Positions 4,986 through 58,240 of a DNA stretch of 64,000 nt are shown here, in pieces. Each line of letters starts with the position of its first letter. Positions within the stretch are counted from its first letter, which is position 1. The notes under the pieces were generated by a model, which worked only from the letters and a program-made list of their open reading frames with translations, ran no database searches and was not told where the DNA came from. The DNA is from Chloroflexota bacterium (GTDB taxonomy: Bacteria > Chloroflexota > Anaerolineae > UBA1429). A program made the translations under genes and the position numbers. Location of the stretch: contig JAAYDC010000011.1 in assembly GCA_012729455.1 (NCBI GenBank), positions 1 through 64,000 on the forward strand. Direction: 5' to 3'.

Positions 4986-6551
4986 TCATGAGAGGTCGAT
5001 GGCATCCTCATCAGAGTCGCCAAAGGGATCGTCCTCTTCATCCGCTTCATCTTTATCTTCCGAATCGTCATCGGCGGTTTCATCAACTTGGATGACTGTG
5101 CGCGTGCGGCCGCCTACCTCGGGCGGACCGACTACGCCGATCTCCTGCAGCTGGTCGATCAGACGAGCGGCGCGCGGGTAACCGATGCGCATCTGGCGCT
5201 GCAGGAAGGAGGCCGACGCCTGGTTGTGCTCGCGCACCAGCTCAGCAGCCTGCTGCAACAGGGCATCGTCACCCTCGGGTTGCTCCAGCTCCATGCCCTC
5301 CCAGGGGGCGGGTGGCTCTTCACTGGGCAGCACGTCCTGCAGTTTGACCTTGCGCCAATACGAAACCAGCGCCTCCAGCTCTTTATCAAATACATAGCAG
5401 CCCTGGATACGCTCGAGTTTGGGCGAATCAGGCGCCATAAAGAGCATGTCGCCGCTTCCGAGCAGCTTTTCGGCACCGGGGGCATCTAGGATCACCCGCG
5501 AATCGACCTGCGAGGTCGCTAAAAAGCTGATGCGCGCTGGAAAGTTGGCCTTGATCAAGCCAGTTACCACATCCACCGACGGGCGCTGTGTGGCGATCAC
5601 CAGGTGGATGCCAGTAGCGCGCGCCATCTGGGCGATGCGGCAGAGGGTCTGCTCGACGTCATCGGGGGCAGCCAGCATCATATCGGCCAGCTCGTCGATG
5701 ATCACCACAATCATCGGCATGTTTTCCAGCTCTTTGGTGGCGGTCAGCTTGTTATAGCTGCCGATATCGCGTACGCCCAACTTGGCAAACTCGGTATAGC
5801 GCCGTTCCATCTCGCGCGTGACCCAGCGCAGCGCCACAATGACCTTGCCGGTATCCACCACCACCGGCGCGATCAGGTGAGGGATGCCGTTATAGTTGGT
5901 CAGCTCGACGCGCTTGGGGTCGACCAGCAGCAGCTTGACCTGCTCGGGCTGGTTAAAGAACAGCAGAGAGGCAATAATAGCGTTCAGGCAGACACTCTTG
6001 CCAGAACTGGTGGCGCCTGCTACCAGCAGATGCGGCATGGCGGCCAGGTTGGCGACCACCGCCTGTCCCGAAACATCGCGCCCTAACGCGATGCGCAGCG
6101 GCGGTTTGGCGTCGTTAAATTGGGGGCTCTCGAGTACACCGCGCAAGCCTACCAGGGCTTTGGCGCTGTTGGGAACCTCGATGCCCACCACCCCGCGGCC
6201 TGGCACGGGCGCCTCCATGCGGATCGGCGAAGCCGCCAGAGCCAGCGCCAAGTCGTTGGAAAGCGACAAAATCTTGCTGACGCGCACCTTGACCTGTTTG
6301 GTGTTGCCGTCACGATCCTGGCTCTCTATAAAGCCGGGTTCCAACCCGAACTGGGTCACAACCGGCCCGCGGTGCCACTCGACCACTTTGACGGGGAGGC
6401 CAAAGGCGTGAAAGGTCTTTTCAATGGTCTCGGCCTGTTGGCGTGCAGAGCGTTCGTCGTCATCCATCCCCTGGTCGGGCATCAGGATATCCAGCGACGG
6501 CAAGCCCTGCGGAGTGGCCTTGGTACGCAGATTAGCAGCGGGTTGGCGCAC
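4986..6551 (-). CDS. ftsK: FtsK/SpoIIIE DNA translocase, motor and gamma part
   Basis: This frame holds the alpha/beta motor and gamma domain: a start region with DEERSARQQ-type helix and VVEWHRGPVVTQFGLEPG, Walker A GATSSGKSVCLN, Walker B PMIVVIIDELADMML, the QRPSVDVVTGLIKANFPARI motif and the C-terminal winged helix (LVREHNQASASFLQRQ...RAARLIDQLQ). The extreme C-terminus is an acidic tail. The first start codon in this frame is a GTG at 6551, but the protein should be continuous with the membrane domain at 6584-7276. The frames are separated by a run of 11 C (minus strand) at 6589-6599. One C more or two fewer would join them. The intact enzyme pumps DNA at the division septum. Confidence 0.9.
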   Translation of the reverse strand: MRQPAANLRTKATPQGLPSLDILMPDQGMDDDERSARQQAETIEKTFHAFGLPVKVVEWHRGPVVTQFGLEPGFIESQDRDGNTKQVKVRVSKILSLSNDLALALAASPIRMEAPVPGRGVVGIEVPNSAKALVGLRGVLESPQFNDAKPPLRIALGRDVSGQAVVANLAAMPHLLVAGATSSGKSVCLNAIIASLLFFNQPEQVKLLLVDPKRVELTNYNGIPHLIAPVVVDTGKVIVALRWVTREMERRYTEFAKLGVRDIGSYNKLTATKELENMPMIVVIIDELADMMLAAPDDVEQTLCRIAQMARATGIHLVIATQRPSVDVVTGLIKANFPARISFLATSQVDSRVILDAPGAEKLLGSGDMLFMAPDSPKLERIQGCYVFDKELEALVSYWRKVKLQDVLPSEEPPAPWEGMELEQPEGDDALLQQAAELVREHNQASASFLQRQMRIGYPRAARLIDQLQEIGVVGPPEVGGRTRTVIQVDETADDDSEDKDEADEEDDPFGDSDEDAIDLS

Positions 6552-6583
6552 CGGTTTAGGCGGTTTAGCCGCGGCGACAGGCT

Positions 6584-7276
6584 TTACAGGGGGGGGGGGC
6601 TTGTCAGAGGCTCAGGGGCAGGGCGTTGTGCTGGGATGCGGTAGGGTGGTTCGGCCACAGGTGCTTCGGGTGGAAAGAATAGCTGGCGGGCCTTGGTGCG
6701 CAATGCGCACACGCCGGATGCCAGATAGCCAAACAACCTCGCGAACAGGCTGCGCGCTTCGCTCCAGCCCGTGCCAGTCGCAATCATCAGTGCCAGGATA
6801 AAGACGATCGCCATCAAGACCAGACCGGCAGCGCGCCCGAACCGGGGCGTGACCAGCGAGGAGATTCCCCAGCCCAGATAACCGCCGCCGCGGCCGGCGC
6901 GTGCCAGCGCCTCTGCATCGGGGCCTGCGGCGGTGTGAATAAAGCCCAGCAGCACCAGGTAGGCCAGCAACCATCCAATCGTACTGCGTACGCGCGGCTG
7001 CAGGTGCGGCTCGCAATAATCCCAGGCGATCAGCATCACAGAGCCTGCCAGCCAGCCGAGCGCCACCAGAAAAGCCCCGATCGGGCCAAACATCTGTCGC
7101 AGGGTACGTGCCCAGCCCTCGCCAATCAGCCCTTGTCCGCTAAAGATCAGGGTGATAAGCGTTACCACGCTGATGAGGCTGAGCAGCACGGCCCACAGTT
7201 CGCGCCTGGCCAGCAGCGAACCGGAACGTGGCTGAGTGCGCCCGCTGGGGCGGCGCACCGTGCGCGGATTTTTCAT
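6584..7276 (-). CDS. ftsK: FtsK N-terminal membrane domain (frame-separated)
   Basis: 230 residues in a different frame from the motor. A basic N-terminus is followed by four hydrophobic segments (LWAVLLSLISVVTLITLIF, IGAFLVALGWLAGSVMLIAW, TIGWLLAYLVLLGFIHTA, GLVLMAIVFILALMIATG). This is the FtsK 4TM anchor. A proline-rich linker (PEAPVAEPPYRIPAQRPAPEP) then runs into the poly-C tract and stops at once. As written, the product would be a membrane anchor without a motor. It starts at ATG 7276, overlapping the stop of the upstream S1-protein gene in ATGA. Confidence 0.85.
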   Translation of the reverse strand: MKNPRTVRRPSGRTQPRSGSLLARRELWAVLLSLISVVTLITLIFSGQGLIGEGWARTLRQMFGPIGAFLVALGWLAGSVMLIAWDYCEPHLQPRVRSTIGWLLAYLVLLGFIHTAAGPDAEALARAGRGGGYLGWGISSLVTPRFGRAAGLVLMAIVFILALMIATGTGWSEARSLFARLFGYLASGVCALRTKARQLFFPPEAPVAEPPYRIPAQRPAPEPLTSPPPL

Positions 7277-34841: not shown

Positions 34842-36002
34842 ATGACTGACAACAATACCCACCTGTTTATCAATGCAACCATCCACACTGCCAGCGGTAT
34901 TTGGCCAAACAGCTGGCTGCTGGTACAAGCTGGGCGCATCGTCGCTATCGGAACGGATGCCGCGCCTACCGTCGGCGCCCCTGTCACCGATCTGGCCGGG
35001 GAGTACCTGATCCCGGGCCTGATCGATATGCACGTGCATGGCGCCCTCGGGCACGACACCATGCGTGTCTCAGCGGATGGCCTGGGCGAGATGGCGCGCT
35101 TTTTCGCGCGCCACGGGGTGACCAGCTTTCTGGCGAGCACGATCACGGCGTCTGGCGACGAGATCGAGGCCGCTTTGGGCGCTGTCGAACAGGCCATGCG
35201 GCAGCCCAATGGCGGGGCCAACCTGCTGGGAGCGCACCTCGAGGGCCCCTACATCGAAGAGGGCCGCCGCGGGGCGCACGACGCTGCCCAGGTGCGTCTA
35301 GCACAGCCGGCCGAATATCTCGCCTACCTCGATTCGGGGCTCATCAAAATGGTCACGGTAGCGCCCGATTTTTCCGAAAACCTGACCTTTATCCGTGCGG
35401 CTGCCGAGCGCGGCATCATCGCCGCCATCGGTCACGGGCAAGCCACCTATCAGCAGGCGCGCGAGGCCGTCAACCTGGGTGCCACCCAGGTGACGCACTG
35501 CTTCAACGCCATGAATCCACTGCATCATCGCCAGCCAGGGCTGCTCGGGGCAGCCCTGGCCCTGCCGGCCCTCACCTGCGAGTTGATTGCCGACCTGGTA
35601 CATCTGGATGCCGTTGTGCTGCGCCTGGCGTATGCCGCCAAGGGCGCTGACCGCATCGTCCTGGTGACGGATGCCGTCAGCGGTACCGGCCTGGCGGATG
35701 GCGACTATGACCTGTGGGGCACGCGCATCAGTGTGCGCCAGGGTGAGGCACGCACCGCCTCAGGGGCGCTGGCGGGCTCTACGTTGACCCTCGAATATGG
35801 CATGCAGCGCATGATGCAAGCGTGCGACATCACCCTAGAGCAGGTTCTGCCGATGGTCACGCTCAACCCCGCTCGGCAACTCGGTCTGACGCACAAGGGG
35901 CGCATTGCCGTGGGATGCGATGCCGACCTGGCCGTCTGGGATGGCAACCAGATTACCCTCACCATGGTGGGTGGGAAGATCGTCTATGACCGATCTGCCT
36001 GA
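34842..36002 (+). CDS. nagA: N-acetylglucosamine-6-phosphate deacetylase
   Basis: 386 residues starting MTDNNTHLFINATIHTASG. IPGLIDMHVHGALGHDT carries the first metal histidines, GAHLEGPYIEEGRRGAHDA the metal Glu, IAAIGHGQATYQQA and THCFNAMNPLHHRQPG further ligands, and VTDAVSGTGL the catalytic Asp. It removes the acetyl group of GlcNAc-6-P in amino-sugar catabolism. No nagB is adjacent. ATG 34842 is chosen over the upstream open frame on family length. The double-cupin gene follows 6 bp downstream. Confidence 0.92.
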   Translation: MTDNNTHLFINATIHTASGIWPNSWLLVQAGRIVAIGTDAAPTVGAPVTDLAGEYLIPGLIDMHVHGALGHDTMRVSADGLGEMARFFARHGVTSFLASTITASGDEIEAALGAVEQAMRQPNGGANLLGAHLEGPYIEEGRRGAHDAAQVRLAQPAEYLAYLDSGLIKMVTVAPDFSENLTFIRAAAERGIIAAIGHGQATYQQAREAVNLGATQVTHCFNAMNPLHHRQPGLLGAALALPALTCELIADLVHLDAVVLRLAYAAKGADRIVLVTDAVSGTGLADGDYDLWGTRISVRQGEARTASGALAGSTLTLEYGMQRMMQACDITLEQVLPMVTLNPARQLGLTHKGRIAVGCDADLAVWDGNQITLTMVGGKIVYDRSA

Positions 36003-49791: not shown

Positions 49792-50803
<1,012 letters not shown>

Positions 50804-50817
50804 GCCAGGAGGAGGCA

Positions 50818-52215
50818 ATGAGAAACGTACGACTCGGTTTTGTACCGGCCCATCGCTACCCCTTTGACGAGCCGTGGGCCATCACGCTGCGGGAGCGCTG
50901 CATCCGGGCACTCGAGGGCGTTCCGGCTGTTGAGCTGGTTTATCCCTCGACGGATCTGATCCTCAATGGCCTGGTGCGTGATGATGCCACCGCAGAGGCC
51001 ACCATCGCGCTGTTTCGCGAGCAGCAGGTCGAGGGCGTGGTGATTGGCACGATGACCTTTGGCGATGAAGTGTCTGCCGTCAGCGTGGCCGAGGCGTTGG
51101 GCGTGCCGGTGCTGGTGTTTGGCACCAAGGAACCGCCCTTTACCACGGATGGCAAGCGCCATTCGGATTCGTTCTGCGGCACGCTCTCGGTCACTTCGGG
51201 GTTGTATCGCCACAAGATACCCTACCAGTTCGCCGGCATCTTCTTTCCCGAGGAAGAGGCGTTTCTGGCGAGCATCGCCGATTTCGCACGCAGCTGCGCG
51301 GCGGTGGAATCCTTTATGGGGACGCGCGTCGGCATGGTGGGCTTGCGTCCCGAGCGCTTTGAGACCTGTATCACCAACGAAGTCGCCCTGATCAACGCCT
51401 TTGGCCAGCGCGTGGTACCGCTCAACCTGACGGACCTCTTTGCCCAGGCCAACGCTCTGCCCGAATCCGACCCCGCCGTACAGGCAGCAATGAACGTCAT
51501 GCAGGCCGAGTCGAACTGCTCAAGCTGCCGGCCGGGGGCATTGCTCAAGGCTGCGCGGCTGGAGGCAGCTCTGACAGCCTTTGCCAAACGCAAGAGCCTG
51601 AGTGGCATGGGCATCTCGTGCTGGAACGACATCCAGGAGCAGTACGGCATCTGTGCCTGCACCACTGTGGCACGCCTGACACAAAACGGCATCATGGCGG
51701 CCTGTGAAGTGGATGTACTGGGCGCGCTTACCATGCTGGTGCAATATCAGGCTGCTCTTACCGAGCAAGTACCGCACTTTATAGACTGGACGATCCAGCA
51801 TCAGGAGCTGGACAACGTCTTTCTGGCGTGGCACTGCGGCAATGCCTCAGCCTGTCTGGCAGCGGATCCGGCGCAGGTGACCCTGCGCGACCAGGCTATC
51901 ATGTCTGAGGTGGTTGGCGCAGAGCGCGCCGGCATGGCGCAGGAGTTCCAGTTGGCACCCGGACGCGTGACTCTTTGCCGCCTGGTTGAGTACGACGGCC
52001 TATTCAAGATGTTGGTCACCACTGGTGAGATCCTGCCCTCCAACGACGATCTGCGCGGCTCGTGGGCGTGGGTGAGGGTGGATGACCTGGCTGTGCTTTA
52101 CCGCACTCTGGCTGAGGAAGGCTTTACGCATCACGCTAGTATGATCCACGGCGATCTGGCAGATCCCATCACGGGCTTTTGCCACTTTGCCGGCATCGAG
52201 GTTGTGCGCGTCTAA
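50818..52215 (+). CDS. L-fucose/L-arabinose isomerase-like protein
   Basis: 465 residues. GTMTFGDEVSAVSVAEALGVPVLVFGTKEP, FAGIFFPEEEAFLASIADFA, LSGMGISCWNDIQEQYGICACT and FLAWHCGNASACLAADP match the FucI/AraA fold, including a buried Glu/His metal-site pattern. Many Chloroflexota encode such proteins of unproven substrate. GGAGGAGG precedes ATG 50818, 14 bp after queA, so it may be co-transcribed. A second sugar enzyme (AraD-like) is at 38397. Confidence 0.82.
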   Translation: MRNVRLGFVPAHRYPFDEPWAITLRERCIRALEGVPAVELVYPSTDLILNGLVRDDATAEATIALFREQQVEGVVIGTMTFGDEVSAVSVAEALGVPVLVFGTKEPPFTTDGKRHSDSFCGTLSVTSGLYRHKIPYQFAGIFFPEEEAFLASIADFARSCAAVESFMGTRVGMVGLRPERFETCITNEVALINAFGQRVVPLNLTDLFAQANALPESDPAVQAAMNVMQAESNCSSCRPGALLKAARLEAALTAFAKRKSLSGMGISCWNDIQEQYGICACTTVARLTQNGIMAACEVDVLGALTMLVQYQAALTEQVPHFIDWTIQHQELDNVFLAWHCGNASACLAADPAQVTLRDQAIMSEVVGAERAGMAQEFQLAPGRVTLCRLVEYDGLFKMLVTTGEILPSNDDLRGSWAWVRVDDLAVLYRTLAEEGFTHHASMIHGDLADPITGFCHFAGIEVVRV

Positions 52216-54459: not shown

Positions 54460-54531
54460 ACCAGCTGTGTTGGATTTGTGCCGCACGACCAGGCACCCAT
54501 TCGGCAGGTTCATGAGGACTGTGAACCGTCC

Positions 54532-55398
54532 ATGGTGAGTAACCAACTGAGAGACGCTTTTGCGGAAGCCTGCGCCTTTATTCGGGGCTTGTATACGGCT
54601 GCCCCTCAAGTTGCCTGCATCCTCGGTTCCGGCCTCTCCGGCTTTGCCGACCAGGTTGAGGATGCCCAGGTTATTCCCTATGATGAGATCCCGCACTTTC
54701 CGCGCCTGACGGTGCCTGGCCACCAGGGACGCCTGGTATTGGGGCACATCCACCGGGTGCCAGTGGCAATACTGCAGGGGCGTGCGCACTTTTACGAGGG
54801 GTATGACCTGCGCGAGCTAACTTTACCAGTGCGGGTGCTACGTGCCCTCGGAGCGCACAGCTTGGTGGTTACCAACGCGGCTGGGTCGCTGCATACCGAT
54901 TGGTCGGTCGGTGACCTGATGTTGATTACCGACCACCTCAACATGCCGGGTCTGGCGGGCCACAATCCGCTGCGCGGACCTAACGATGATGCTCTTGGCG
55001 AGCGCTTCCCAGCTATGTCGGATGCCTACGATGTCCAGTATCGCCGCATTGTGTGCGAGTTGGCTTCTGAGCAGCAGCTGACGCTGCGTCAGGGCGTGTA
55101 TGCTATGGTGGGCGGTCCGAATTTTGAGACGCCGGCCGAAATCCGCGCGCTGCGTATCCTGGGCGCTGATGCGGTGGGCATGTCGACGGTGCCCGAGGTA
55201 CTTGTGGCGCGCCACGGAGGTATGCGCGTGCTGGGGCTTTCGATGTTGAGTAACATCTGTGTAGATGCTGTCGATTCGAAAATGCCCCCGGCCAATCACG
55301 CTGAAGTGCTCGCCAGCGGCAAGCTTGCAGCTGAAAAGCTGAGCAGGCTGCTGGAGGGTTTTTTCGCACAATTACAAGAGAGAACGTTCAATGGGTAA
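54532..55398 (+). CDS. punA: Purine nucleoside phosphorylase (family II, trimeric)
   Basis: 288 residues. VACILGSGLSGFADQV, RAHFYEGYDLREL, VVTNAAGSLHTDWSVGDLMLITDHLN, GPNFETPAEIRALRILGADAVGMSTVPEVLVARHGG are the PNP/MTAP family core. It splits purine nucleosides with phosphate. ATG 54532 or the upstream GTG 54478 could start; neither has a clear ribosome site. It overlaps the next gene by 8 bp and precedes the amidohydrolase-CYTH gene, a nucleoside-deaminase-like enzyme. Confidence 0.92.
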   Translation: MVSNQLRDAFAEACAFIRGLYTAAPQVACILGSGLSGFADQVEDAQVIPYDEIPHFPRLTVPGHQGRLVLGHIHRVPVAILQGRAHFYEGYDLRELTLPVRVLRALGAHSLVVTNAAGSLHTDWSVGDLMLITDHLNMPGLAGHNPLRGPNDDALGERFPAMSDAYDVQYRRIVCELASEQQLTLRQGVYAMVGGPNFETPAEIRALRILGADAVGMSTVPEVLVARHGGMRVLGLSMLSNICVDAVDSKMPPANHAEVLASGKLAAEKLSRLLEGFFAQLQERTFNG

Positions 55399-56209
55399 TG
55401 TCGTAACCTTCCTGGTAACGGTCCTCGACCGTTATACCGTGTGGCTATATGTGCTGCTTGGCCTGATCAGTCTTTATTACCTGCGCCGCCTAATTATGGC
55501 CCGCCGCGGACGCGGTCGCTCGACCTATACCATTGAACGCGAAGTGGCAGCGCATAAAGAGTGGCAAGCCTTAGTTGGGATCGGGGTCGTGCTGGCAGTG
55601 GCAGCTGTGATCGTTTCGATCAAGATGTTTGTGCTGCCCGAGATCGATATCACCAAACTCAGCGAACCGACCCCCACTCTCACGCTACCGCCTGCTACCA
55701 AGGTGTTTGCAACCCTCACCGGCTCGCCGCCGGCGGCTTCCGAGACGGACTCTGGCACGCCAAGCGCTGAGGGCACCCCCTCACAAACGGCTACGCCGTC
55801 ACAGAACGACACCACCGCCCCAGATATGATGGATCCGCAGCCGGCTGAAGTTCCCGAGCCAACCATGGAACCTCAGCCGACAGCTGCGCCCATCGCCAGC
55901 TCGGCTCAGGTGGGCGTGGCGATCCTATCGCCGGGATATGATGCCACCATCAGCGGGTCTACTATCATCTATGGGATAGCTACCCATCCACAGTTCCAGT
56001 TCTACAAGCTCGAGTATTCCGCCGGTGACCAGCCCGAAAACTGGAATGTGTTTGGCAGTCTGCACTATCAGCAGGTGGATGGCGGCACACTCGATTCGCT
56101 CAACACCACCGCCCTGCCTAACGGCGTGGTGTGGTTGCGCCTGACGGTCGTAGACCAGGAAGGCAACTACCCCGAACCTGCTTTGGTACGAGTCAACATC
56201 CAGAACTAG
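55391..56209 (+). CDS. Membrane protein with Thr/Pro-rich linker and outer beta domain
   Basis: 272 residues. Two membrane segments (LDRYTVWLYVLLGLISLYYL and ALVGIGVVLAVAAVIVSIKMF) flank a basic RRGRGRSTYT stretch. A disordered linker of about 90 residues (TPTLTLPPATK...EPTMEPQPTAAP) follows, then a beta-rich C-terminal domain (VAILSPGYDATISGSTIIYG, FQFYKLEYSAGDQP). The C-terminal domain is predicted outside the cell. Function unknown; the overlap with punA suggests co-translation. Confidence 0.65.
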   Translation: MGNVVTFLVTVLDRYTVWLYVLLGLISLYYLRRLIMARRGRGRSTYTIEREVAAHKEWQALVGIGVVLAVAAVIVSIKMFVLPEIDITKLSEPTPTLTLPPATKVFATLTGSPPAASETDSGTPSAEGTPSQTATPSQNDTTAPDMMDPQPAEVPEPTMEPQPTAAPIASSAQVGVAILSPGYDATISGSTIIYGIATHPQFQFYKLEYSAGDQPENWNVFGSLHYQQVDGGTLDSLNTTALPNGVVWLRLTVVDQEGNYPEPALVRVNIQN

Positions 56210-56236: not shown

Positions 56237-58240
56237 ATGCACTCAGCCAACCTCGATGGTGTCCCCGAGGCAGCCGACCTGATCCTCGATAAAGGCCACG
56301 TGCTCTGCATGGATGCCCTTTGGACGAGCTATCCGCAGGGAGCGGTGGCGATCCGCGGCGAAGAAATCGTCGCGGTTGGCCCACGCAAGGACGTGCTGGC
56401 ACACTACAGCACCGCCCAGCGCATCGATTGCAGCGGATGCGCTGTCATCCCCGGGCTGGTTAACGCCCACACCCATCTGCCGATGAGCCTGCTGCGCGGC
56501 TTGGCTGATGATCTGCGCCTGGATGTCTGGCTGCACGGCTATATCCTGCCCGTCGAACAGCACTTTGTGGACCCCGATTTCTGCTACCTGGGTACCCAGT
56601 TGGCGTGCGCCGAGTTGATCCGCGGCGGGGTGACCTGTTTTGCCGACATGTACTACTTCGAGCACGACGTGGCGCGCGCCGCCGCCGAGGCCGGCATGCG
56701 CGGAGTGTGTGCCGAGACGATTATGAAGTTCCCCACCCCCGACGCGCCCGACTATGAGACCAGCCTGCGCTATGTGGCTGATCTGGTGGATCACTGGCAG
56801 GGGCATGAGCTGATCGTGCCGGCGATCGCGCCGCACTCGCTGTACATGTGCACTGAGACGATCCTGAACGAGATCCAGCAGCTGGCGGTGGCAAAGCATT
56901 CCCCGATCCTGATTCACATCTCAGAGACCGAAGATGAAGTGCAGAACTGGGTGGCTGGCACTGGAAGTCGTCCGTTGGTGTGGCTGCATGATCACGGCTT
57001 GTTGGAGGTCCCTTCAAGTGCAGCACATTGTGTGCATGTTTCGGAAGAAGAGATACGTATCATGCGCCAACACCAGGTTGGCGTGGCACATAACCCCACC
57101 AGCAACCTAAAGCTGGCCAGCGGTATTGCGCCTGTGGCGAACTTTCTGCGGCAGGATATCGCTGTGGGCATCGGCACCGATGGCGCGGCCAGCAATAATG
57201 ACCTCGACATGTTCGAAGAGCTGCGCCTGGCGGCGCTCTTGCCCAAAGCGCTGGGCAGCGACCCAACCGCCGTGCCGGCGCGCATCGCGCTGGCGATGGC
57301 CACTAGCATGGGCGCGCGCAGCCTGCATCTGGATAGCGCGATCGGGTCGCTGGAGGTCGGCAAGCGCGCCGATGTGGCGGTAGTGCGCATGCAGGAGCTG
57401 CATCAGCTGCCGCATTACGAGACCACCGACCAAAATAGCTATTCCAGGCTGGTGTATGCCTCCAAAAGCCAGGATGTGCGCGATGTGGTGATCAACGGCC
57501 AACTGGTGCTGCGCGATGGCAAGCTGCTGACGATCGACCAAAAGGCTGTGCTGAGCGAGATCAACGCGGTGGCTTCTGACGTGACGCGCTTTTTCATCGA
57601 ACGTGAAACCAACGTCTTTGGCAAGCTGGTAGCCATCGGTGGTCAGCTCGAACTGCACGAGACCTATGAGGTGCAAGCCAAAGGGGTTATCAAATCGCAC
57701 GACGATTTCCTCCGCCGCTTGGAGGATTCTGGCCTGGAGGTACTCCTGAACACCTCGCGCGACCAGTACGATGTCTACTTTTTCTTTGCGGATGCCAGGC
57801 AGGGACGCCTGCGCTACCGCGAAGACAATGTGCTGCGCGACGATGGCAGCATCGAGCCGATCTATACCCTGACCCTGGTGGGCCTGGTGGCGGAAGCCGA
57901 ATACGAGCACAGCGTGATCCTTTCGCGCTCACGCTTTACCGCCAACGCCGACCGCAGCCTGCGCTTTTACCGCGAGTATTTCAAGCCTGAGGCGATACGC
58001 GAGATCGCCAAGCATCGCGAACGCTACCACATCCGTTACCAGGGCACCGAGTTTGCTGTGAATATCGATACCATTACGCAGCCTGCCCAGGATGCCGCCT
58101 TCCTTGAGATCAAGAGCCGTACCTGGTCGCAGCAGGATGCAGTGCGCAAGGCCGCCCAGATCGGCGAGATGCTGGCCATATTGGGCGCACACCCCGACGA
58201 TATGCGCACGGATGGTTACATCGACCTTTTGCACGACTAG
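56237..58240 (+). CDS. Amidohydrolase (nucleoside-deaminase-like) fused to a CYTH domain
   Basis: 667 residues with two domains. Residues ~10-450 form an amidohydrolase of the MtaD/SsnA type: VIPGLVNAHTHLPMSLLRGLADDLRLD (first metal His pair), APHSLYMC, ILIHISETEDEV, and IGTDGAASNNDLDMFEEL (metal Asp). These enzymes deaminate 5'-methylthioadenosine, S-adenosylhomocysteine or related compounds. Residues ~475-667 look like a CYTH/triphosphate tunnel domain: TYEVQAKG (ExExK-like, second Glu replaced by Gln), FFADARQGRLRYREDN, RERYHIRYQGTEFAVNIDTI, and AAFLEIKSRTWS. CYTH proteins hydrolyse triphosphates or cyclise ATP. The fusion is unusual and sits after punA. ATG 56237 has GAGGCGG upstream. Confidence 0.85.
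   Translation: MHSANLDGVPEAADLILDKGHVLCMDALWTSYPQGAVAIRGEEIVAVGPRKDVLAHYSTAQRIDCSGCAVIPGLVNAHTHLPMSLLRGLADDLRLDVWLHGYILPVEQHFVDPDFCYLGTQLACAELIRGGVTCFADMYYFEHDVARAAAEAGMRGVCAETIMKFPTPDAPDYETSLRYVADLVDHWQGHELIVPAIAPHSLYMCTETILNEIQQLAVAKHSPILIHISETEDEVQNWVAGTGSRPLVWLHDHGLLEVPSSAAHCVHVSEEEIRIMRQHQVGVAHNPTSNLKLASGIAPVANFLRQDIAVGIGTDGAASNNDLDMFEELRLAALLPKALGSDPTAVPARIALAMATSMGARSLHLDSAIGSLEVGKRADVAVVRMQELHQLPHYETTDQNSYSRLVYASKSQDVRDVVINGQLVLRDGKLLTIDQKAVLSEINAVASDVTRFFIERETNVFGKLVAIGGQLELHETYEVQAKGVIKSHDDFLRRLEDSGLEVLLNTSRDQYDVYFFFADARQGRLRYREDNVLRDDGSIEPIYTLTLVGLVAEAEYEHSVILSRSRFTANADRSLRFYREYFKPEAIREIAKHRERYHIRYQGTEFAVNIDTITQPAQDAAFLEIKSRTWSQQDAVRKAAQIGEMLAILGAHPDDMRTDGYIDLLHD

Follow-up and report, generated by a model that had tools for sequence, protein, structure and literature searches.

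A nucleoside-deaminase-type amidohydrolase fused to a CYTH barrel with an altered second metal site in Chloroflexota

CYTH domains are usually taken for hydrolases or cyclases. What, then, might such a domain do at the C-terminal end of an amidohydrolase? The question is raised by one frame in the window analyzed here, a 64,000-nucleotide stretch of DNA from a Chloroflexota genome of 30 contigs (2.64 Mb, 99.2% complete). A first-pass annotation made from the letters alone had described a single 667-residue frame that joins a complete amidohydrolase (AH) to a CYTH domain, and the open reading frame, the Pfam matches, and the predicted fold bear this out. All of the motifs that it listed are present in the translated ORF: NAHTH, APHS, HISET, and GTDG in the AH half, and TYEVQAK, RLRYRED, and FLEIKSR in the CYTH half. 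Table 1 gives the layout of the locus.

Table 1. Features of the fusion gene and its neighbors, with positions in the window
Feature	Position	Strand	Remarks
Purine nucleoside phosphorylase (pnp), inosine/guanosine type	54478-55398	+	TIGR01700 above cut-off
Membrane-anchored protein, Pro/Thr-rich stretch, between pnp and fusion	55391-56209	+	no Pfam match
Fusion ORF	56237-58240	+	667 aa, ATG start
AH domain, MTA/SAH/adenosine-deaminase type, cog0402-like	56270..57556	+	residues 12-440
Helical linker joining AH and CYTH	57557..57649	+	residues 441-471; two helices in predicted models
CYTH/TTM barrel, degenerate metal site 2	57650..58237	+	residues 472-667
Altered ExExK, E478-x-Q480-x-K482	57668..57682	+	Q480 in 79/79 rows
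DxY motif, D512-x-Y514	57770..57778	+	79/79 rows
Triphosphate-binding RxR, R526-x-R528	57812..57820	+	79/79 rows
Altered ExE, E624-x-K626	58106..58114	+	M1 Glu kept, M2 Glu to Lys; 79/79 rows
Genomes with MTA phosphorylase near the fusion			G015, G030, G032, G034, G035, G040, G044, G053

The AH half matches Amidohydro_1 (PF01979) over residues 70-424 with an E value of 2e-65 (Pfam). Among the named NCBIfam families, the TRZ/ATZ hydrolase model NF006549 scores highest, with 459 bits against a cut-off of 540. The equivalog cut-offs of NF005557 (344 versus 522) and NF012037 (278 versus 779) are likewise not reached, and the models for 5'-deoxyadenosine and MTA/SAH deaminases rank lower than NF006549. 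The exact deaminase specificity is therefore not fixed by the profiles. The full-length predicted model has a pLDDT of 91.4, and its AH part (model residues 1-444) superimposes on 4dzh, 4dyk, 4f0r, and 4gbd with Z scores of 58-59 and rmsd values of 1.2-1.6 (VIA-align). The MTA/SAH deaminase TM0936 of T. maritima gives Z 51.6, and atrazine hydrolases and guanine deaminases score lower (Z 44-49, with guanine deaminases at about 44). The MTA/adenosine deaminases from P. aeruginosa (4dyk/4gbd), X. campestris (4dzh), and C. violaceum (4f0r/4f0s) are alike in fold at 38% identity and share every metal and catalytic residue with the AH domain; their chains, in contrast, stand alone, with no CYTH domain attached. 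In every aligned row that covers them, those residues (H78, H80, E107, H200, H227, E230, H264, and D315) are the same. The structural matches and this invariance uphold the earlier reading of the first domain as nucleoside-deaminase-like. Judged from sequence and model, the AH half is probably a metal-dependent nucleoside deaminase of the MTA/SAH/adenosine group, and its substrate is probably adenosine or a SAM-derived adenosine by-product (MTA, 5'-deoxyadenosine, or SAH).

The CYTH half is recognized more readily by fold than by profile. PF01928 scores 20.5 bits with the whole protein, 24.0 with the domain alone, and 23.9 in a whole-genome scan, in which the fusion protein is the sole match in the source genome. 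Against the cut-off of 23.2, the whole protein falls below and the latter two scores exceed it, so the CYTH assignment passes this profile marginally. The profile also matches 27 of 38 relatives at E <= 0.1, with a best value of 2.2e-9. An AlphaFold2 prediction of the C-terminal 228 residues, made with a 38-row homologue alignment, has a mean pLDDT of 88.9 and a pTM of 0.82 and takes the form of the eight-stranded CYTH/TTM tunnel barrel, the outcome on which the first-pass assignment had been made to depend. Foldseek and VIA-align agree in ranking CYTH enzymes first. The top PDB match is PH1819 (2een; Z 17.9, rmsd 2.3 over 168 residues, VIA-align), and it is accompanied by CyaB (Z 16-17), SaTTM (Z 16), AtTTM1 (Z 14.5), and ThTPase (Z 14). 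PDB sequence searches with the CYTH part alone or with the 38-row profile returned no CYTH chain; only the fold comparison found them.

To define which residues are fixed, tallies were made over 79 distinct rows gathered by phmmer and HMM searches only. This motif-independent set was used because the scan of named genomes had picked relatives partly on ExQxK itself. Within the CYTH domain, E478, Q480, K482, D512, Y514, R526, R528, R566, R576, K592, R594, R596, D611, E624, and K626 are invariant in 79/79 rows, and the linker residues F452, E457, and K463 are nearly so. The register relative to canonical CYTHs was set by global hhalign and by MAFFT, which are concordant: both pair EVQVK with EVEVK and FLEIK with FVELE or FVEVE. 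ExQxK replaces ExExK in all 79 rows, and ExK replaces ExE in all 79; the hallmarks of catalytic CYTH tripolyphosphatases and ThTPases are thus absent from every row. The first-pass annotation had seen the Glu-to-Gln change, which proves universal; the second substitution, Glu to Lys in the C-terminal ExE, is missing from it.

The consequence of these changes can be read from characterized enzymes. In SaTTM, metal 1 sits on E7 and E135, the two-metal state also involves E5, E7, and E137, and the second Glu of ExE is a ligand of metal 2 (PMC8233210). In ygiF, metal 2 is bound by E4, E6, and E162, and PPPi hydrolysis is impaired by mutating ygiF E6/E160 or AtTTM3 E2/E4/E169 (PMC4641920). By alignment, Q480 occupies the position of SaTTM E7 and ygiF E6, and K626 that of SaTTM E137 and ygiF E162; the equivalents of SaTTM E5 and E135 are kept as E478 and E624, the latter being the metal 1 (M1) ligand. 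Of the three Glu that coordinate catalytic metal site 2 (M2), every copy has thereby lost two. With these ligands lost, the CYTH half is unlikely to act as an ordinary triphosphatase, ThTPase, or cyclase. The phosphate-handling motifs of catalytic CYTHs are present, however, with RxR (R526, R528) and DxY (D512, Y514) in 79/79 rows; in SaTTM and CyaB, DxY positions the β-phosphate water (PMC8233210). RxR and DxY are, with the M1 Glu and ten basic residues that point inward, invariant or nearly so. On the eight predicted strands the invariant residues alternate: 19 of 21 lie on the same face (P = 0.004 if placed at random), and ten of those on that face are basic, a pattern that fits a tunnel lining. 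Because the phosphate-binding side is wholly retained, the CYTH half likely binds a phosphate ligand.

Comparison with known TTM proteins shows what is shared and what is particular to the fusion. SaTTM (7ns9), PH1819, and CyaB (3n0z) share its fold (Z 16-18), DxY, the M1 Glu, and the Lys of ExExK, and RxR is as in the TTMs; the fused copies differ in the Gln of ExExK, the Lys of ExE, and their C-terminal place in a large enzyme. E. coli ygiF (CYTH+CHAD) is likewise a two-domain protein with a CYTH part, but it has both metal sites, is an active tripolyphosphatase, carries its CYTH domain at the N terminus, and has CHAD as its partner. Plant TTM1/TTM2 (7z67) also have a TTM without ExExK and ExE, which follows a nucleotide-type enzyme (a phosphoribulokinase/uridine-kinase-like domain) in the fused chain. 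They differ in partner enzyme and lineage, and the structural alignment shows 14% identity. Known CYTH fusions include HD hydrolase, exopolyphosphatase, nucleotidyl kinase, CHAD, and plant phosphoribulokinase, and amidohydrolase is not among them (PMC8233210). Our literature search found no paper describing a CYTH-amidohydrolase fusion, a weak negative since most subscription papers lay outside the search.

The first-pass annotation had proposed a search for the same fusion in other Chloroflexota, and it is found there. The CYTH part occurs in 39 of 60 class genomes (the source genome counted, and one copy, in G035, split over two contigs), and in each of the 37 relatives whose locus was read completely it is fused to an amidohydrolase, which makes 38 genomes with that of the window. 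In a phylum sample, 62 of 301 Chloroflexota genomes carry the fusion, Chloroflexia included. Matches in this sample are all-or-none (E <= 7e-79 or absent), with frames of ~650 residues or longer except in G196, where the contig ends within the gene. Nowhere in the 301 phylum genomes did a CYTH of this type stand alone; contig-edge fragments aside, all sampled copies are fused. A scan of named genomes confirmed 521 relatives. Among the best 80 of these 521, 79 are fused, the exception (L089) sitting at a contig end, and the labels are nearly all Chloroflexota/Anaerolineae, in keeping with the Chloroflexota source implied by the first-pass annotation. These relatives include the cultured Longilinea arvoryzae KOME-1 (L117) and Levilinea saccharolytica KIBI-1 (L131), as well as assemblies labelled Herpetosiphon and Roseiflexaceae. 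Viral contigs searched with six short patterns gave no relative, and none of 1245 plasmid hits covers 80% of the query; the five best span the amidohydrolase part only.

Some individual copies stand apart. Two carry foreign labels, L127 (Deltaproteobacteria) and L141 (Vicinamibacteraceae), with 53% and 66% identity, respectively, to their nearest Chloroflexota copies; misbinning or transfer may account for them. Genome G345 has two copies, each in a full-length frame, on contigs C121 and C53, and one in-frame TGA was counted in the copy near 6271-6945 of G280:C57.

The history of the fusion was examined with a tree built from 39 fused AH domains and 20 further amidohydrolases from the class. 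The fused domains form one branch with 100/100 support when L324, the sole "unfused" row inside it, which runs off a contig end, is set aside. The branch has as its sister group L322 and L323, two proteins of 443 and 515 aa that lack the fusion and may show the state before it. Pairwise distances in the AH and CYTH halves are correlated (r = 0.88; means of 0.43 and 0.51, respectively). A single fused clade and correlated distances indicate that the fusion arose once and that the halves stayed together, which is the simplest reading of the sequences. The fusion architecture is real, old, and strongly constrained.

Does the gene neighborhood name a substrate? The upstream neighbors are those that the first-pass annotation had reported, a purine nucleoside phosphorylase and a membrane protein. 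The pnp and membrane genes overlap by 8 bases, and a gap of 27 bases separates the latter from the fusion; the three likely form one operon. The proposed link to punA holds to the extent of this apparent operon, but the adjacency is limited to the source genome and its nearest genus (locus L032), which makes the link weak as evidence for the fusion in general. A homologue of the membrane protein lies at the equivalent place in L032, with weaker matches in L051, L104, and L142. An operon conserved beyond the nearest genus was rejected, as the neighborhoods of the other loci differ, and since the neighborhood is not conserved, gene context does not name the substrate. Beyond the nearest genus, the commoner nucleoside-enzyme neighbor is a convergent, not co-oriented, MTA phosphorylase (TIGR01694 above cut-off), found near the fusion in 8 genomes from 7 families (Table 1); the source genome has its own copy, located away from the fusion. 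Neighbor clustering also places near 8 loci what reads, by its sequence, as a pyrimidine-nucleoside phosphorylase. Matches to classical adenosine deaminase (PF00962) and MTA/SAH nucleosidase are absent from the source genome. An alternation between PF00962 and the fusion was considered and is not clear, with 13 of 39 fusion genomes (G035 counted) having the classical enzyme versus 9 of 21 others.

The simplest pathway would run from SAH to adenosine (AdoHcyase), to inosine (AH domain), and to hypoxanthine (PNP); MTA or 5'-deoxyadenosine is a possible substrate of the AH domain as well. A different proposal, which concerns the deaminase half only, is that it serves the route from SAH to S-inosylhomocysteine (SIH) of Methanocaldococcus and Thermotoga. 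The AH group does contain TM0936, and the source genome combines the lack of an MTA/SAH nucleosidase with a short AdoHcyase (L266; G000:C7:26700-28000) in which profile positions of about 141-175 are unmatched. However, the nucleobase motif of this AdoHcyase, read from the printed sequences, is HVTSE, that is, HxTxE, the signature of SAH-type enzymes, and not the HxExK of SIH-preferring ones (PMC10978960). AdoHcyase is also present in 58 of 60 genomes and does not track the fusion (39 of 60). The motif disfavors the S-inosylhomocysteine route, which we consider unlikely. The short form of AdoHcyase occurs in most class relatives; G050, which lacks the fusion, has one uninterrupted strong match.

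For the protein as a whole, we propose that a nucleoside deaminase has been fused to a TTM barrel that lost metal site 2 and kept its basic phosphate tunnel and metal-site-1 Glu. The barrel would bind a phosphate compound (PPPi, polyphosphate, or a nucleotide) and leave it intact, and would regulate the deaminase or place or tether it, a design comparable to that of plant TTM1/2. That the protein is a working deaminase regulated or tethered by a phosphate- or nucleotide-binding degenerate TTM seems to us about evenly balanced between right and wrong. The first-pass annotation had instead supposed that the CYTH domain acts on a triphosphate or makes a signal, as an ordinary hydrolase or cyclase alongside the deaminase. 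The CYTH fold, RxR, DxY, and the M1 Glu are what such an enzyme would retain, but all copies have other residues at two of the three M2 Glu positions. The HFxxxxExExK motif of class IV cyclases is also absent, residues 472-473 of the window protein being EL and no HF appearing at that position in the printed rows, and R526 is kept, whereas these cyclases swap the first Arg of RxR (PMC8233210). The aromatic residue of the ThTPase W/YxRxR is likewise absent in the window protein, where residue 524 is Arg. Taken with the double substitution, these features make an ordinary hydrolase or cyclase very improbable.

Loss of M2 alone does not prove that catalysis is lost, given two precedents: plant TTM2, without ExExK and ExE, reportedly acts on pyrophosphate (PMC8233210), and yeast Vtc4 uses site 1 only, yet is a polymerase that transfers phosphate. 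The CYTH half could therefore still be enzymatic, as a single-metal Vtc4-like phosphotransferase or TTM2-like pyrophosphatase in which Lys626 replaces the second metal. The invariance of the tunnel residues over 79 rows suggests chemistry or very specific binding, and the polyphosphate polymerase Vtc4 (3g3r) has the TTM fold and, like the fused CYTH, basic side chains at the acidic-patch positions of AtTTM3. However, Vtc4 matches with Z 9.2, far below the archaeal and CyaB-type CYTHs (Z 16-18), and gives no sequence match. Pfam finds CYTH only and no VTC-family profile, the SPX and membrane parts of Vtc4 have no counterpart in the fusion protein, which is without a membrane segment, and no polyphosphate gene was recognized beside it. 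A single-metal enzyme is possible but doubtful. Could the barrel instead be a mere oligomerization scaffold, like the noncatalytic TTM-like fold of Mediator Med18? Med18 structures do match the model (Z 11-13.5), and SaTTM crystallizes as a dimer (PMC8233210), but a scaffold has no need for 19 invariant strand residues on one face, ten of them basic, and this explanation is improbable.

Under the preferred reading, a phosphate- or nucleotide-binding barrel that regulates or tethers the deaminase, the fusion would be a bacterial counterpart of the degenerate plant TTM1/2 in a soluble two-domain enzyme. It has been kept over two Chloroflexota classes with the same two substitutions, which should put the standard two-metal mechanism out of action, and with its phosphate grip retained; this cautions against annotating such fusion proteins as adenylate cyclases or triphosphatases. 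A more speculative extension, rather unlikely in our estimation, is a novel phosphate sensor in which the one-metal TTM responds to PPPi, polyphosphate, or a nucleotide by setting the rate of deamination of SAM-derived adenosine by-products, or else carries out one-metal phosphate transfer on the nucleoside product. The sensor, if real, would connect phosphate or energy status with the SAM cycle.

Two other frames in the window were seen along the way. A second Amidohydro_1 protein (35004-35984, + strand; 96 bits) is separate from the fusion, and the product of 50800-52215 (+ strand) has an L-fucose-isomerase C-terminal domain with a distant match to the sulfoquinovose isomerase SftI (154 bits, cut-off 700).
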